A DNA stretch of 64,000 nucleotides from Herpetosiphonaceae bacterium. Lineage in GTDB: Bacteria > Chloroflexota > Chloroflexia > Chloroflexales > Kallotenuaceae. Below, piece by piece: positions 15,332 through 22,908 of this stretch (the stretch's first letter is position 1; each line of letters begins with the position of its first letter). The notes under the pieces were generated by a model. The model saw only the letters and a program-made list of their open reading frames with translations, did no database searches and was not told the DNA's origin. Made by a program: the position numbers and the translations under genes. The stretch spans positions 1-64,000 of the forward strand of contig DASUTC010000200.1 in assembly GCA_036374795.1 (NCBI GenBank), written 5' to 3'.

Positions 15332-18262
15332 CTATCCCAGAGGCATCACCCTGCCAGACGCCCACGCCGCCGTGAACGAGCTTTCATCCATCTGCGTGCG
15401 GACGCTGGCGATCATCTGCTCGTAGTATGGACGATCGGCAGGCTGTGGCGGCGCGCTGATCGCGTCACGCAGCGCCTCCGCCGCTCCGGCAAGCTGCGCG
15501 GCCCGCACCACCTGGCCCCGCGCTCCAGCCAGACCCGCCAATCCTTCGAGCGCCGTAGCAATTCCCTCGCGATCGCCAACCTCGCGGAACAGATGTAGGC
15601 TTTCTTCGAGCAGCCGCTCCGCGCGCTGGTGATCGCCGTTGGAGAGCGCGATCCGCCCAAGGTAGGTCAGAGAGCGCGCGATGCCCGATTTGTTGCCGAC
15701 CTTTTGCAGCAGCGCAAGACTTTCTTCGAGCAGCCTAGACGCATGGGCGTGCGCGCCGCGAAAGAGCGCGCTGCGGCCCTGGAAGTTGAGCGCCATCGCG
15801 ATGCCGATCTTGTGATCCAATTCCTGGAACAGCGCCAGGCTTTTATCGATCAGCGGCGCGGCGCGCTCGTCATCGCCTTCGTTGAGCACGGCCATGCCCA
15901 TGTAGTGCAGCGTGCTCGCCATGCCGTATTTATCGTGGATCTGGCGGAAGAGGCCCAGCGCCTCTTCCAGCAGGCCAATCGCCTGGCGGTAGTCGCCCTG
16001 CCAGTAGGCGATTAAGCCCAGGTTGGTCAGCGCCTGCGCGATCCGCTCTTTATCGCCAGCCATCCGCTGATGCATCAGGCTCTCGGTAAAATAGGCCCGC
16101 GCCTGGTGGTAATCGTCCTGAATGAAGGCCAGCACACCAGCGCCGCAGAGAGCTTTGGCTCGTACCGCGCGCGTCACACCTTCGGTATGGGCCAGCACCG
16201 CATCCAGCCAGCGGCGACCTTCCCCGATGTAGTCGCGGGCATACCAGAAGCGCCAGAGCGCGGCGCAAAGGCGTGTGGCTGTTTCGGGCTCGTCGGCTTC
16301 GAGCGCCCAGGTGAGCGCCGCGCGCAGATTCATATGCGCGCGCTCCAGCCGCTCCAGCCAGCTTGCCTGCTGCGCTCCTTTCAACGCAGGCTCGGCCTGC
16401 TCCGCCAATCGGAGGTAGTAGGCCGCATGGGATCGCCGCAGCGCCGCCGCACCGCCGCTCTGCGCCAGCAGCTCGTGGGCATATTCCTGGATCGTTTCGA
16501 GCATCACGAAGTATGGCTCGCCGTCGGGGCCTTCCTCCTGCCGTAGCACGCTCTTGTCCACGAGCGAGACAAGCCCATCCAGCACGTCGAGCGCGTGCTG
16601 CTCGGCTGCTGCCTCGGTCGCGCTCCACACCGCCTCCGCCGCCTCCAGCGTGCAGCCGCCGACGAACACGCTCAGCCGGACAAACAGGGTTTGCTCAGCC
16701 GGAGTCAGCAGCTCGTAGCTCCAATCGATCGTTGCCCGGAGCGTCTGATGACGCAGCGGCGAGTCTTTCGGCCCGCCAGTGAGCAGCCTCAGGCGATGAT
16801 CCAGGCGCGGCAGCATCGCTTGCGGCGGAAGACATTTGATACGCGCTGCGGCCAGCTCGATCGCAAGCGGCAGACCATCCAGCCGCACGCAGATCTCGCC
16901 GACAGCGGCGGCATTCTCGTCGGTCAGCTTGAAGTCGTACTTGACGGCCTGTGCCCGCTCGGCGAAGAGCGTCACGGCGGGCGATTGCGCCAGCGCGGAG
17001 AGTGTCGGTGATGAAAGATCGGGCAGCGCCAGCGGCGGCACGGGCGCTTCGTACTCGCCGTATAGATGCAGCGTCGCGCGGCTGGTGATCACGATCTTGA
17101 GCTGCGGCGCTGCGGCCAGCAGCTCGGAGATCAGCGCTGCGGCGGCTGTCACCTGCTCAAAGTTGTCCAGCACCAGCAGGTGATGTTTATGGCGAAGATG
17201 CACCTTGAGTGTTTCCAGAAGCGGCTGGCCGGGGATCTCTTTCAGCGCCAGCGCCTGCGCAATCGCCGAGACGACCAGCGCGGGATCGCGCACCAGCGCC
17301 AGCGCCACGAACGTCACGCCGTGCTCGAACTCGTCGATCACCTCAGCCGCAATCTGTAAGCTCAGGCGGGTCTTACCAGCACCGCCCGGACCAGTCAGCG
17401 TCAGCAGCCGCACCTCGCCCCGCCCCAAAAGATCGCAGGCCGTGGCAACCTCCGCTTCGCGACCAATCAAAAACGTCGTCGGCGACGGCAGGTTGCTCGT
17501 GCGCGGCGCGGCATGAGCGCGTGGCAGCACAGGCGGCGCTGTCTCGATCGGTATCGGCGCGCTCATCGGCAGCGCAAAACGATAGCCGATCCCCGGCTCG
17601 GTCAGCATATAGCGCGGATTCGACGGATCGTGCTCCAGCTTGCAGCGCAGCCGCCGAATGTACGAGTGCAGGTAGCTGCTTTCTTCGCCGTACGCATCGC
17701 CCCAGACGCGCTGTAAGAGCATCCGGTGAGTCAGGACGTTTCCGGCGTGATGCACCAGCTCACGCACCAGCGCCCACTCGGTCGGCGTGAGTCGTACCTC
17801 CGCTCCATCGCGCATCAGACGGTGATTCTGAAAGTCGATCTCCAGGCTACCGCAGTGCAAGACCTGCGATTGCGCGTGCCGCTCCCAGTATCCGGCCCGG
17901 CGCAGCAATGCTTCGACACGCGCCAGGAATTCTTCCTCACCAATCGGTATCGTCAGGTAGTCGTCGGCCCCAAGCCGCAGCGCGGCCACTTTACGCATCG
18001 TGCTGCTCGGCTCCGCGATGATCATCAAGGGGACCATCGAGTGCTGGCGAATCTGACGGCACAGCTCCATGCCGTCGATCTGCGGAAGCTGGGATGCGAG
18101 AATAACCAGATCCGGCTCTTCTTGCTCCCACAGCGCAAGCGCCTGGAAACCATCGGCAGCGCGCAGTACGCGGAAGCCCTGCGCTTCGAGATGCCGACAC
18201 AATAACATCAGGAGGGCGTGATCAGCCTCGGCGACGAGTACACGTTGCTGTCGAGATACCAT
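15332..18262 (-). CDS. STAND regulator: pseudo-receiver, OmpR-type winged helix, NB-ARC ATPase, TPRs
   Basis: 976 residues from ATG 18262 (TAGGAG upstream); the 33-codon longer frame lacks homology. Residues 7-122 form a CheY-like receiver, but the phospho-acceptor Asp is A56, the conserved Thr/Ser is A83 and the Lys is I105, so it cannot be phosphorylated normally. A KdpE/OmpR winged helix spans about 135-230. The NB-ARC ATPase begins near 265: Walker A GPGGAGKT (291-298), Walker B LLVLDNFEQ, and GLPLAIELAAARIK. The C-terminal 350 residues are tetratricopeptide repeats with GDYRQAI and GDHQRAER-type units. Likely a signal-gated transcription factor. Transcribed alone and divergently from the wall-hydrolase genes. 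Confidence 0.9.
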   Translation of the reverse strand: MVSRQQRVLVAEADHALLMLLCRHLEAQGFRVLRAADGFQALALWEQEEPDLVILASQLPQIDGMELCRQIRQHSMVPLMIIAEPSSTMRKVAALRLGADDYLTIPIGEEEFLARVEALLRRAGYWERHAQSQVLHCGSLEIDFQNHRLMRDGAEVRLTPTEWALVRELVHHAGNVLTHRMLLQRVWGDAYGEESSYLHSYIRRLRCKLEHDPSNPRYMLTEPGIGYRFALPMSAPIPIETAPPVLPRAHAAPRTSNLPSPTTFLIGREAEVATACDLLGRGEVRLLTLTGPGGAGKTRLSLQIAAEVIDEFEHGVTFVALALVRDPALVVSAIAQALALKEIPGQPLLETLKVHLRHKHHLLVLDNFEQVTAAAALISELLAAAPQLKIVITSRATLHLYGEYEAPVPPLALPDLSSPTLSALAQSPAVTLFAERAQAVKYDFKLTDENAAAVGEICVRLDGLPLAIELAAARIKCLPPQAMLPRLDHRLRLLTGGPKDSPLRHQTLRATIDWSYELLTPAEQTLFVRLSVFVGGCTLEAAEAVWSATEAAAEQHALDVLDGLVSLVDKSVLRQEEGPDGEPYFVMLETIQEYAHELLAQSGGAAALRRSHAAYYLRLAEQAEPALKGAQQASWLERLERAHMNLRAALTWALEADEPETATRLCAALWRFWYARDYIGEGRRWLDAVLAHTEGVTRAVRAKALCGAGVLAFIQDDYHQARAYFTESLMHQRMAGDKERIAQALTNLGLIAYWQGDYRQAIGLLEEALGLFRQIHDKYGMASTLHYMGMAVLNEGDDERAAPLIDKSLALFQELDHKIGIAMALNFQGRSALFRGAHAHASRLLEESLALLQKVGNKSGIARSLTYLGRIALSNGDHQRAERLLEESLHLFREVGDREGIATALEGLAGLAGARGQVVRAAQLAGAAEALRDAISAPPQPADRPYYEQMIASVRTQMDESSFTAAWASGRVMPLG

Positions 18263-18315
18263 AAGACTGCTCCTAGTCCAACACATGGCCGACTCTAAAC
18301 CGATGGTGCGGTTCG

Positions 18316-18333
18316 TGAAACGGTGATGTTTCA
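18316..18333. promoter_or_regulatory. Palindrome upstream of the STAND regulator
   Basis: TGAAAC (18316-18321) and GTTTCA (18328-18333) with a 6-nt spacer, 54 bp before the start codon. Two half-sites this close to a transcription-factor gene could be an autoregulatory site. No matching promoter boxes were recognised. Confidence 0.35.
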
Positions 18334-19045
18334 ACGTCGCTACAGCACGATCGGACGACAAGCTCTGGAAGACATGTTTGATTGAGGAAGGCTACACCCT
18401 AAGCTCTCCTGGGCAGTGTTCGACTGTCACCGGCGACAAGGGGGGAGTGTGTGGGTCGCGCGGTGGCAACTACCTACCTGACGAGGGATTAACCTGCCAT
18501 ATTCAGCAACGCTAGGCTTTGTGCGGAATCACGGTGCATCTTCGGAAAATAGCCGATTCTCCACCGGCAAGGGGAGGTTTGGGAGTATACCCTCACGCCC
18601 CAGGCTTGACGGCCAATCAGCACGAGCGTGCGCTCCGATCTACAAAGTGTGCTGCTGTTGTCTCCTGTCTATCTTAAGATTTTTTAAAGAATTTTTCAAG
18701 CTATTATTTAGATCTTTCTACCATTTATTCAGATCTCTTTTAGATCCGACAGGTATAATTTTGGTTAAAACGAAGTACATGGCCTCCCACACCTCTCGCT
18801 GCAATCGTTCCGCTCATCAGATGGAGCAAGGCGGAGTTGGGCTAGACGGATAGGTGTCCAGCGCAGGGGCAACGATCTGGTGGAATCGTATCTGATGTTC
18901 TGGCGCCACACAATCCTTCGATGCTCATCATCCGTCGGCTACTCGCTGCCCAGGCTTCGGGATGCGCGCTGTTCTATCGCTTCGGTTGGGGGCCATCGTA
19001 GCATCTGCTCAACCGCATGTTTGTTGCTGTCAATGGGAGCTATCT
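18334..19045. other. Divergent intergenic region with AT-rich patch
   Basis: About 710 bp between the regulator (-) and the amidase (+) with no supported gene. Bases 18660-18780 are strikingly AT-rich, carry AGATC three times (near 18709, 18731 and 18742) and a TATAAT at 18754-18759 that lacks a convincing -35 box. This is where I would look for the amidase promoter. The rest is unremarkable. Confidence 0.4.
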
Positions 19046-20125
19046 ATGTCGGAATCGCACAACTCTGTTCCACGCCGCTCGTTCCTCAAGGCTGCCTTGG
19101 GTGTCGGCACTAGCATTCTGATGGGCGGGATCGAACTCCGCTTTGCGCCCGTCGTCGAAGCTGCGGTCACTTCGCCCACCATCGCAAGCTGTAGCACCTG
19201 GGGCGCGCAGCCGCCCAAAGAGCCGATCACCGTCCTCAGCACACGTCCAACCAAGATTCTTGTGCATCATACGGCAGGCTCGAACTCTACCGACTACTCG
19301 CTCTCCCATGCCTATCAACTGGCGCGCAACATCCAGCAGAGTCACTTCAATCGCGGCTGGATCGACAGCGGGCAGCAGTTTACGATTAGCCGGGGCGGCT
19401 ATGTGATGGAGGGACGCCACCGCAGCCTTGAGGTGCTGCGCGGCGGCACGTCGCACGTCCGAGGCGCCCACTGCGACGGCCAGAACGATGTTGCGGTCGG
19501 CATCGAGAACGAGGGCACGTACACCTCGGTCCAGCCGCCGCAGGTGCTCTACAATCAGCTTGTCGCGCTGTGCGCCTATATCTGCCAGCAGTACGACATT
19601 CCCAGCTCCCAGATCTACGGCCATCGCGATTTTAATGCCACGCAGTGCCCAGGCGATCAGCTCTATGCGATGTTGCCGAAGCTGCGCAGCGATGTCGCGG
19701 CGCGCCTCGGTGGCGGCGGTGGCTCGCGCGTCTGGCCGATCGTGCAGCGCGGCGACACCGGCGAGCGCGTCAAGACGATCCAGTATCTCCTGCGCCACCG
19801 GGGCTACAGCCTGACGATCGACGGCATCTTTGGGTCAGGCACCGAGAGCGCGGTCAGGAGCTTCCAGACCTCGGTGGGTATTACCTCGGATGGGATCGTC
19901 GGCGCGATGACCTGGGAGTCGCTGATCATCACGACGCGGCGCGGCGACACGGGCGATCCTACTCGCGCGATCCAGAGTCAACTGGTTTCCAAAGGCTATA
20001 GCCTGGTGATCGACGGCATCTTTGGAGCGGGCACTGAGAGCGCGGTCAAGAGCTTCCAGACCTCGCGCGGCCTGACGGTCGACGGCGTCGTCGGTCCAAA
20101 CACCTGGAATGCGCTGGTGAGCTAG
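19046..20125 (+). CDS. Tat-exported N-acetylmuramoyl-L-alanine amidase with two PG-binding domains
   Basis: 359 residues, ATG 19046 with GGGAG upstream. A twin-arginine signal (RRSFLK, residues 10-15) precedes a hydrophobic stretch. An Amidase_2/PGRP catalytic domain covers about 60-200; zinc ligands appear as the first His of VHHTAGS, the His of GHRDFN and the Cys of QCPGDQ. Two PG_binding_1 repeats follow (about 235-295 and 300-358), each with VDG/IDGIFGxGTESAV and FQTS. It cleaves the MurNAc-L-Ala bond outside the membrane. First of three adjacent wall hydrolases. Confidence 0.92.
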   Translation: MSESHNSVPRRSFLKAALGVGTSILMGGIELRFAPVVEAAVTSPTIASCSTWGAQPPKEPITVLSTRPTKILVHHTAGSNSTDYSLSHAYQLARNIQQSHFNRGWIDSGQQFTISRGGYVMEGRHRSLEVLRGGTSHVRGAHCDGQNDVAVGIENEGTYTSVQPPQVLYNQLVALCAYICQQYDIPSSQIYGHRDFNATQCPGDQLYAMLPKLRSDVAARLGGGGGSRVWPIVQRGDTGERVKTIQYLLRHRGYSLTIDGIFGSGTESAVRSFQTSVGITSDGIVGAMTWESLIITTRRGDTGDPTRAIQSQLVSKGYSLVIDGIFGAGTESAVKSFQTSRGLTVDGVVGPNTWNALVS

Positions 20126-20141: not shown

Positions 20142-20224
20142 GAACCACGAGCTGAGAACCACACGAAAGCACCAGAGAACAAGAAAACAAATGTGGAACT
20201 TGGAAATCGAAACCCGGAACATGA
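20142..20224 (+). repeat. Heptad repeat cluster, locus 5
   Basis: Starts 17 nt after the amidase stop with GAACCAC/GAGAACC/GAGAACAAG-type words, then in-phase 7-mers AACTTGG (20197), AAATCGA, AACCCGG, AACATGA up to 20224. A CGGAGG Shine-Dalgarno and ATG 20238 follow. It lies between two co-directional hydrolase genes. Confidence 0.72.
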
Positions 20225-20237
20225 CGGAGGAACAACC

Positions 20238-21209
20238 ATGACACCACGCGCTTCGTTGCGTTCGGTGCGCAACAAGATCCTGATGCTGGCACTGCTCGGC
20301 ATGATCGTGCTGGGCGGCACGCTGCCAGCGCGGGCTTTTTCCAGCGCCTTTTTCCCCACCCAGAGCATCGGTAATCGCGGCGTCGACGTTAAGGCGATCC
20401 AACTGCTGCTGAACATCAGCGCTGACGGCATCTTCGGCTCCGGCACTGATAGCGCGGTCAAGAGCTTTCAGTCGTCGCGGGGATTGGCGGTGGATGGGAT
20501 CGTCGGACCGGCGACCTGGGACGCGCTGACGCCGACGGTGCGCAACGGCAGCACCGGCAACGCCGTCAAAGCGCTGCAACTGCTGCTGAACGAGAAGAAT
20601 CGCGCGGGGCTGTCCGTAGACGGCGTTTTCGGCTCAGGCACTGATGCCGCCGTGCGTAATTTCCAGAGCCATGCCGGTCTGGCGGTCGACGGCATCGTCG
20701 GCCCGACAACGTGGAAGAATCTGGTCTGGCACTACGACTATCCCAACTGGGGCACCAGCATGTGTGATCAAGATCCCGACGCCAACGGCCTGGCAAACTG
20801 GGGCACCGGCGCGGCGATCGGGCAGCTTGAGGCGGCGGCCAATGCGTTCATTGGGCTGGGCCAGGGCCGCGTGCCGGTCGGCGATGTGAGCAGGGAGCAC
20901 GGCGGCGACATTGCCGGCCATGCCAGCCACGAGGTTGGCCTGGACGTGGATGTGTGGCCGATTCGCACCGACAACGCCCAATGCACCGGCACCCGTATTA
21001 CCTGGCAATCGTCGGCCTACGATCGCGCGGCGACCCGTGAGCTGGTCAGGGCGATCCGCAACGCCGCGCCCGGCCATATCAAGGTGATCTACTTCAACGA
21101 TCCGCAGTTGATCAGCGAGGGCCTCACGACGCAGTACGCCAACCATGATAATCACCTGCATATTCGCTACTGCGAGAAGATTCATCCCAACAGCCTGTAC
21201 GATTGCTAG
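20238..21209 (+). CDS. Exported murein endopeptidase (M74/MepA-like) with two PG-binding domains
   Basis: 323 residues, ATG 20238 after CGGAGGAACAACC. Sec signal peptide (residues about 13-33, ending PARA). Two PG_binding_1 domains (about 40-95 and 100-158) with DGIFGSGTDSAVKSFQ and DGVFGSGTDAAVRNFQ. The C-terminal catalytic domain has HASHEVGLDVDVW and HDNHLHIRY, the zinc-ligand pattern of LAS peptidases of the MepA/M74 type, which cut D-Ala-meso-DAP cross-links. Preceded by heptad locus 5. Confidence 0.87.
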   Translation: MTPRASLRSVRNKILMLALLGMIVLGGTLPARAFSSAFFPTQSIGNRGVDVKAIQLLLNISADGIFGSGTDSAVKSFQSSRGLAVDGIVGPATWDALTPTVRNGSTGNAVKALQLLLNEKNRAGLSVDGVFGSGTDAAVRNFQSHAGLAVDGIVGPTTWKNLVWHYDYPNWGTSMCDQDPDANGLANWGTGAAIGQLEAAANAFIGLGQGRVPVGDVSREHGGDIAGHASHEVGLDVDVWPIRTDNAQCTGTRITWQSSAYDRAATRELVRAIRNAAPGHIKVIYFNDPQLISEGLTTQYANHDNHLHIRYCEKIHPNSLYDC

Positions 21210-21331: not shown

Positions 21332-21966
21332 GTTTGTTGTTGATATGCTGAGATTTGTAGACATGATCAGGATCTATAGTCGGAATTTTTATTCTCAGTC
21401 GTAGTTCTCTGCTACATTCAACAACCATGCATATCTGTGTATGACAATCGCGATGCTCATCATCATGGTCAGAAAGGATATATGTAGAGGTTTACATAAA
21501 GCGATATGTGGCGATTGCCCTCGGCGATTCGTGATAATCTTCGATATAAATCGATTGCGATCACCGATGAGAATATCATGGTACGGAATATGCTTGCGAG
21601 AATGTGATGATTATTGCGATATAGCTTACTGAATAATGCTCAGGTATCGGTAAGTTGTAGGTTGTATCGTTCATTGTGTTGATATGAGCGAAGCAATTGT
21701 ATGATCGATATAGAAGAAAAGAATATGCATAGCATGTAATCATCGCCGTTAACATACCTGGAAGGGAGGGATAGCAGAACAGTCGAATATCAAGATATAT
21801 GATGATGTTGCGGTGCCTGGCTTTTCTGATGATATAACAGCTTCTAATCTTGCACAGAACGCTGTTGCTCATACGATATAGCATTGTGTCATGGGCCGCG
21901 ATATGGAAAACCGATTACGTATGTCCGCAAGGATCGTTCGTAATCGTTATTCTAAGGAGGGAGATT
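21332..21966. other. AT-rich gene-free region before the third hydrolase
   Basis: About 635 bp markedly richer in A and T than the surrounding genes, with repeated CGAT/GATAT words. Open frames of 63 and 102 codons here look random (Ile/Tyr/Ser-rich, no Shine-Dalgarno). A TAAGGAGGGAG ribosome-binding site at the right end belongs to the next gene. It may be a long regulatory leader, a decayed gene or an RNA gene; the sequence alone does not decide. Confidence 0.4.
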
Positions 21967-22908
21967 ATGCGTCGTATCCTATATATCGCGTTTGGTCTGG
22001 CACTGTTTGCGCTGTTGAGCGCTCCCACGACGACATTTGCGCTCTCGTGGCCGACGCATAGGCTGGGCGATAGTGGCGCGAATGTCTTTACGATCCAACA
22101 CCTGCTCAACGCCCACGGCTACACGCTGACCGCCGACGGCTATTTCGGCGATATTACTCATAATCAGGTCAGATCGTTCCAGTGGTCCAGGGGCCTGGTC
22201 GACGATGGCATCGTTGGACCGAACACCTGGGAGGCGCTGGTGCTCACCGTGCGCTACGGCGACTCCGGCGAGGCCGTCAAGGCAGCGCAGCGCCAGTTGA
22301 ACAAGTACGGCTACGGCCTGACAGTCGACGGCGTCTTCGGTCCCGGCACGGATAGCGCCACACGAGACTACCAGAGCAAGCACGGCCTGGATCAAGACGG
22401 CATCATTGGCCCGGCCACCTGGTCTTCACTGACCTCCGGCGGCGCGTCTGGTCGGGCTGAGCTTGCCGCGCAGATCCGCAACAACAGCCGGATCTCGCTG
22501 CTGACCTCGCATCCATCGGGCGTCTATGATCCGGAGTCGACGGCCTACCAGAATATCGTAGATACGTCCAACGGTCTGGCGGCCAAGACGAGCAGCTACA
22601 GCGACGTAGGCCGCACCTATGTGTATCTCAGCACGTCGATGCTGAGCACGATGGATAAGCTGGCGAATACCTACGGCTATACCTATCGTGTCACCGAGAT
22701 CGCGGGCGGCGACCATAGCTCGACCTCGCGGCACTATGTGGGCGTGGCCTTCGACGTGGACATGATCAACGGCTCGAAGTTCAGCTCGCGCACGACGACC
22801 GTGAGCAACTTTATGCAGCGCTGTCGCGACAATGGCGCGACCGAGGTGCTTGGTCCTGGCGATGCCGGACACTCGACCCACATCCACTGTGCGTGGCCTC
22901 GTCCGTAG
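21967..22908 (+). CDS. Exported M15-like peptidase with two PG-binding domains
   Basis: 313 residues, ATG 21967 with a strong AAGGAGGG. Signal peptide (about 1-25, ending TFA). Two PG_binding_1 domains (about 30-90 and 95-150). The C-terminal domain ends in SRHYVGVAFDVDMI and GHSTHIHCAW, an HxxxxxxD...HxH zinc arrangement as in M15/LAS D-Ala-carboxypeptidases and endolysins. It differs in catalytic domain from its two upstream neighbours but shares their wall-binding repeats. Confidence 0.85.
   Translation: MRRILYIAFGLALFALLSAPTTTFALSWPTHRLGDSGANVFTIQHLLNAHGYTLTADGYFGDITHNQVRSFQWSRGLVDDGIVGPNTWEALVLTVRYGDSGEAVKAAQRQLNKYGYGLTVDGVFGPGTDSATRDYQSKHGLDQDGIIGPATWSSLTSGGASGRAELAAQIRNNSRISLLTSHPSGVYDPESTAYQNIVDTSNGLAAKTSSYSDVGRTYVYLSTSMLSTMDKLANTYGYTYRVTEIAGGDHSSTSRHYVGVAFDVDMINGSKFSSRTTTVSNFMQRCRDNGATEVLGPGDAGHSTHIHCAWPRP

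Follow-up and report, generated by a model that had tools for sequence, protein, structure and literature searches.

The open reading frame at positions 15332-18262 of the window, the 64,000-nucleotide (64-kb) stretch of Chloroflexota DNA analysed here, encodes what we judge on balance to be an AfsR-like one-component STAND activator that carries a pseudo-receiver and is dedicated to peptidoglycan hydrolases. Relatives have in common with it the dead receiver site, the adjacent wall-hydrolase genes and a predicted DNA site ahead of them; therefore the protein is probably a dedicated switch for secreted hydrolases.

The frame is uninterrupted on the minus strand and translates to 976 amino acids, and its start codon is backed by an AGGAG ribosome site that is conserved in G005, a second species of the window genus. 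Pfam matches bear out the first-pass annotation, which had read a receiver, a winged helix, NB-ARC and TPRs: Response_reg at residues 8-116 (E 1.4e-20), Trans_reg_C (PF00486) at residues 153-229 (E 5e-21), which makes this an OmpR/PhoB-type transcription factor, NB-ARC at residues 277-477 (E 2.6e-7), and TPR_12 (E 3e-22). The protein and its parts are placed as follows.

15332..18262, minus strand: full regulator, with pseudo-receiver, OmpR/PhoB winged helix, NB-ARC (STAND) ATPase and TPR sensor (Pfam, AlphaFold2, PDB fold matches)
17897..18244, minus strand: pseudo-receiver, residues 7-122 (Pfam and alignment; purifying selection)
17573..17866, minus strand: OmpR/PhoB winged-helix DNA-binding domain, residues 133-230 (Pfam and recognition-region comparison)
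16832..17506, minus strand: NB-ARC/STAND nucleotide-binding domain, residues 253-477 (Pfam and motifs)
15350..16462, minus strand: helical/TPR sensor region, residues 601-971 (Pfam, model, fold matches)

The NB-ARC domain comes after the winged helix via a disordered linker (residues 234-251). Walker A (GPGGAGKT), Walker B (LLVLDN), TSR and GLPLA motifs can all be read, so the ATPase, unlike the receiver, looks intact. An AlphaFold2 model built on a 42-row alignment has a mean pLDDT of 90, with low confidence in only two short stretches, one of them the linker. In a PDB fold search the N-terminal part of the model resembled KdpE and RpaA on DNA, and, across 730 alignment columns, the model resembled 6mfv, a STAND protein whose sensor is made of TPRs. 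Pfam, the motifs and the 6mfv match thus identify a STAND signal-transduction ATPase, in which a NOD with Walker A and B motifs is joined to a helical repeat sensor, a combination that resembles the one found in immune receptors. It should also be noted that the window genome holds at least eight further NB-ARC-TPR proteins (C101, C314, C372, C37, C176 and others; L002-L009), which begin with an XRE-type helix-turn-helix, a nucleotide-cyclase-like domain or neither, and whose ATPase/TPR part is 44-54% identical.

When aligned with 17 OmpR-type regulators from its own genome, the protein has A56 at the Asp site, A83 at the Thr/Ser site and I105 at the Lys site, in agreement with the earlier reading of these three residues. 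The Mg-binding acidic pair is also damaged (E12/A13). The 17 ordinary regulators all retain Lys, the acidic pair and Thr/Ser, and 16/17 retain Asp; one of them, L169 (C341:6277-7107), has Gly at the phospho-acceptor position together with Lys, Ser and the acidic pair. A receiver in which any of five conserved residues is missing is a pseudo-receiver, a group that makes up ~6% of bacterial receivers (PMC12632262); with its Response_reg match, E12/A13, A56, A83 and I105, the window protein belongs there. Having A56, both here and in G005, it is also an aspartate-less receiver, a class amounting to ~2% of receiver-OmpR proteins (PMC4395418), although this status holds only at genus level because the other 11 homologues retain Asp. 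It does not qualify as a two-component response regulator, since catalytic residues are lost and no kinase lies beside the gene; no histidine kinase was seen among the immediate neighbours in the window, in the Herpetosiphon locus L151 or in the metagenome-assembled (MAG) locus L034. The DDY...ARV motif of the alpha4-beta5-alpha5 face is retained in the window receiver and in most family members.

Homologues were sought in genomes of the family (6), the phylum (400), the order (82) and the class (158). Among the matches listed, the full architecture occurs in 13 genes from 11 species and 5 genera of a single order, and it may exist outside the order of the window organism too. Tabulating their residues, as had been suggested, gave a split outcome, to be read with the 13 not being independent (six come from one genus). 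None has an intact acidic pair or the Lys, which is replaced by I, T, A, Y or L, and Thr/Ser is lost in 11/13. Loss of Asp is no family trait: it is confined to the window species and its congener G005 (2/13), and 11/13 retain the residue. The paralogue L155 keeps Thr as well as Asp. In the G005 orthologue, whose gene is split across two contigs, the Asp, Thr/Ser and Lys positions hold A, A and T. No homologue among the 13 keeps both Asp and Lys, the combination named beforehand as the refuting case, and 13 same-architecture genes without Lys and an intact acidic pair rule out an isolated degenerate copy.

In a tree that included the 17 controls, the family's receiver and winged-helix units grouped as a single clade apart from them (support 98). 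A first tree hinted at a swap of NB-ARC domains between lineages; this was set aside, since with a longer segment a single clade is compatible with the data (p-AU 0.535). Nei-Gojobori estimates of receiver dN/dS (~0.06 for deep Herpetosiphon pairs; 0.23 when the two species of the window genus are compared) are about equal to those of the NB-ARC and TPR parts and indicate purifying selection. Since these values are like those of the rest of the protein, the domain is maintained for something besides phosphotransfer. With Lys and the acidic pair lost in 13/13, no adjacent kinase seen and the receiver under purifying selection, the original proposal that a two-component part was turned into a one-component STAND transcription factor is supported. 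Four of the six Herpetosiphon genomes carry an additional gene whose match begins at the winged helix. In one of them the paralogue, L153, has the order winged helix-NB-ARC-TPR with the receiver absent, and three more genomes are indicated. This receiver-less paralogue (L153:3430-12000) is divergent from a gene for a very large (1900+ aa) secreted protein.

Upstream of the regulator, the gap of about 780 bp to a wall-hydrolase cluster that the first-pass annotation described is real and measures 784 bp (18263-19046). Across it lie genes for three secreted proteins with peptidoglycan-binding domains.

19047..20125 (readable from 18962), plus strand: gene 1, TAT-signal protein with Amidase_2 and two PG_binding_1 (domain search)
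20193..21209, plus strand: gene 2, two PG_binding_1 and a Peptidase_M74-like domain (domain search; same type in the L151 cluster)
21850..22908, plus strand: gene 3, two PG_binding_1 and a C-terminal domain (GHSTHIH...) (domain search)

Gene 1 has an orthologue at the same place in G005, in Herpetosiphon and in L034. The C-terminal domain of gene 3 gave no Pfam match and, from its sequence, looks like an undescribed M15/VanY-like peptidase-type domain; it (HYVGVAFDVD...GHSTHIHCAW; 21850-22908 and L202:1704-2303) recurs in a Herpetosiphonaceae MAG, again with no Pfam match.

The divergent arrangement of regulator and hydrolase genes is conserved in three genera and two families (the window genus, Herpetosiphon and a Herpetosiphonaceae MAG), as seen in G005, in the fully read Herpetosiphon loci L151 and L035 (H. 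llansteffanensis) and in L034 from the MAG. Hydrolase linkage is absent for the G002 member, for both G424 members and for one paralogue (G005 C110). The G002 gene sits after sugar-transport genes and the G005 paralogue after a GH6 glycosidase gene. Two members without hydrolase linkage, L161:2730-5612 and L150:5020-11362, are found beside a secreted GH6 glycosidase and downstream of sugar ABC-transporter genes, a hint that the family may regulate genes for glycan breakdown more widely.

The region 18660-18780, put forward earlier for DNA-binding assays, contains a conserved, PhoB-box-like predicted operator array followed by a -10 element.

18673..18746, plus strand: predicted operator array (footprint conserved in G005; weight-matrix score)
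18754..18759, plus strand: -10 element TATAAT, directed at the hydrolase genes (last box anchor 13 bp away)

WAGA-like anchors stand at 18676, 18687, 18698 and 18709, then at 18730 and 18741, giving a spacing of 11 bp within groups and 21 bp between groups; the box consensus is TTWAGAT. The intergenic DNA of the window and G005 is mostly unalignable, except for one block (~18670-18712) that belongs to the array, and G005 has the same six anchor positions with TATACT at the same distance. In Herpetosiphon and the MAG the layout is two boxes, 20 bp, two boxes, 13 bp and TATAGT, so that the 13-bp spacing from box to -10 is identical in G005, Herpetosiphon and L034. With a weight matrix trained only on Herpetosiphonaceae boxes, a family other than that of the window genus, and with box spacing fixed after both sequences had been seen, the window array scores 45.9 bits; the runner-up among independent sites in the 64 kb reaches 16.5 bits, and the best of 300 dinucleotide shuffles 32.1 bits. 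The two boxes beside the -10 element cover roughly -38 to -17 relative to the expected start, near the position of the AfsR box, a 22-bp site of two 11-bp repeats at -40 to -19 (PMC10936776). The palindrome noted earlier before the start codon (TGAAAC-GGTGAT-GTTTCA, 18316-18333) does exist; however, it is absent from the G005 contig, and the 64 kb contain 27 inverted repeats with arms and loop as long as its own. Being common by chance and missing in G005, it offers no evidence of an operator.

Further predicted sites are few. A strict two-box pattern has one match in the 7.75-Mb window genome, the array beside the regulator. With one mismatch allowed at most, the version with four boxes and 21-bp spacing matches twice there. 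The second match, on C267, has 0 mismatches and precedes a gene for a secreted protein that shares 55% identity with the cluster gene 3 product across the C-terminal domain. The four-box pattern with 20-bp group spacing has no match in this genome. With that spacing, all six Herpetosiphon genomes carry the cluster site plus a second, similarly built one; this second site has 0-1 mismatch in 6/6 and each time precedes an orthologous secreted gene, which encodes SpoIID and PG_binding_1 domains (one copy domain-tested). The MAG has a second strict two-box match, before another PG_binding_1 protein. No matching site at up to one mismatch was found in G001, G003 or G004, same-genus or same-family relatives that have no regulator gene. 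Other genomes of the order give scattered single matches, about as many as a reversed-pattern control, and the matches L200, L201, L203, L205, L206 and L207 were set aside because they look like chance or unrelated genes. In G424, which holds two family members, a one-mismatch four-box site (L208, C44:9438-9498) lies between a response-regulator-like gene and a gene for a small secreted protein. Two genomes of another genus that do not have the regulator gene carry similar TTAAGG arrays: 11-bp TTAAGGTT arrays occur near a CATACT element at L210 and L211 (G421 C362, G384 C295). These arrays may be sites of an ordinary PhoB-type regulator.

We compared the window protein to known systems. AfsR of Streptomyces coelicolor (SARP-NOD-TPR) likewise combines an OmpR-type DNA-binding domain with NOD (NB-ARC) and TPR; its NOD and TPR inhibit, and ATP relieves the inhibition (PMC10936776). 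Its target, two 11-bp direct repeats over the -35 region upstream of the -10 (PMC10936776), is similar to the predicted array. However, AfsR has a BTA domain and no receiver, whereas the window protein has a pseudo-receiver before the winged helix and no BTA domain among its Pfam matches, which places it outside the SARP family. The atypical OmpR/PhoB regulators ChxR, HP1043, CosR, RitR and GlnR share with it a receiver fold with lost catalytic residues and an OmpR winged helix. These are stand-alone proteins of ~230 aa, whereas the window protein has a STAND ATPase and TPR sensor fused behind; binding of direct repeats by ChxR involves an unphosphorylated dimer (PMC3960148). MalT and PH0952 have the same NOD-arm-sensor layout with helical/TPR sensors, and they offer STAND precedents for NB-ARC/TPR gating (PMC4381067, PMC6468293). 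The effector of the window protein is N-terminal and OmpR-type, whereas MalT carries a LuxR-type DNA-binding domain at its C terminus and its inducer is known. KdpE and PhoB share the receiver-winged helix fold and tandem-repeat operators beside a -10 element, but their phosphorylation site is intact and they have no ATPase or TPR. We found no paper on a protein with pseudo-receiver and NB-ARC in the open-access literature searched.

By analogy with AfsR, MalT and PH0952, control would have passed to the ATPase/TPR sensor. The NB-ARC/TPR module, in a nucleotide-dependent manner and not through phosphorylation, would decide whether the winged helix can act, holding the effector off until a ligand or partner binds. 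Once triggered, the protein would assemble head-to-tail on the 11-bp TTWAGAT direct repeats, which would stand in for the -35 region of the divergent promoter, and the bound protein would recruit RNA polymerase for transcription of the secreted peptidoglycan hydrolases. We infer from sequence that the regulator itself binds the array and that it activates hydrolase transcription. The pseudo-receiver probably supplies a phosphate-independent dimer contact, as in ChxR (PMC3960148): because the fold and the alpha4-beta5-alpha5 motif are kept and the phosphotransfer chemistry is lost, the domain is most likely a phosphorylation-independent dimerisation or docking piece.

The array could instead belong to another, ordinary OmpR/PhoB-type regulator, with the STAND protein adjoining the hydrolases by chance or regulating something else. 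At least 17 other OmpR-type regulators in the genome could bind TTWAGAT repeats, 11-bp repeat boxes are a common operator form of the OmpR/PhoB family, and the TTAAGG arrays occur in genomes without the STAND gene. We nevertheless regard this as rather unlikely, since the array directly adjoins the STAND gene in three genera and two families, and the absence of matching sites from G001, G003 and G004 coincides with the absence of the gene. Moreover, the recognition helix is conserved between exactly those members that adjoin the array: the region YLHSYIRRLR of the window protein is nearly identical to YLHAYIRRLR and YLHAYMRRLR in Herpetosiphon.

Other alternatives concern the receiver. The purifying selection that it experiences despite dead chemistry, and a degenerate active-site pocket that could hold a ligand, would fit a receiver that itself acts as the sensor by binding a small molecule or a protein partner, a role suggested for other pseudo-receivers, with NB-ARC/TPR secondary. 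This is quite improbable given a paralogue of the same effector-ATPase-TPR order without any receiver, and given that AfsR works without one (PMC10936776). Retention of Asp in 11/13 homologues, and of Thr as well in L155, might mean that Asp-keeping members are still phosphorylated and that the window protein is a recent loss, locked on or off. However, Lys and the intact acidic pair, which serve phosphotransfer and Mg binding, are missing in 13/13 and no kinase gene adjoins, so that we consider residual phosphorylation highly improbable. That the receiver is a decaying, functionless relic is scarcely credible: several catalytic residues are lost and it is the least similar part between members, but its dN/dS of 0.06 to 0.23 equals that of the rest of the protein, the model gives a high-confidence receiver fold, and most members keep the DDY...ARV face. 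An AfsR-like activator with a phosphorylation-independent receiver remains our preferred reading.

Because the predicted targets are wall hydrolases, cell-wall fragments are an attractive guess for the signal. It is unlikely, though conceivable, that the protein acts as a bacterial NOD-like receptor whose NB-ARC/TPR module senses muropeptides (from its own wall or from prey) and, by way of the pseudo-receiver and winged helix, turns on a small dedicated regulon of secreted hydrolases, possibly for predation by Herpetosiphon-type bacteria.

A 2025 review (PMC12632262) calls the switching of pseudo-receivers a mystery. In this protein the likely switch, the STAND ATPase with its TPR sensor, is fused to a pseudo-receiver in one chain. 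The predicted regulon is short and the operator testable, and therefore the replacement of phosphorylation could be addressed with one protein, one promoter and one reporter. The proposed activator would link NB-ARC sensing to the expression of cell-wall hydrolases in bacteria related to the predator Herpetosiphon.
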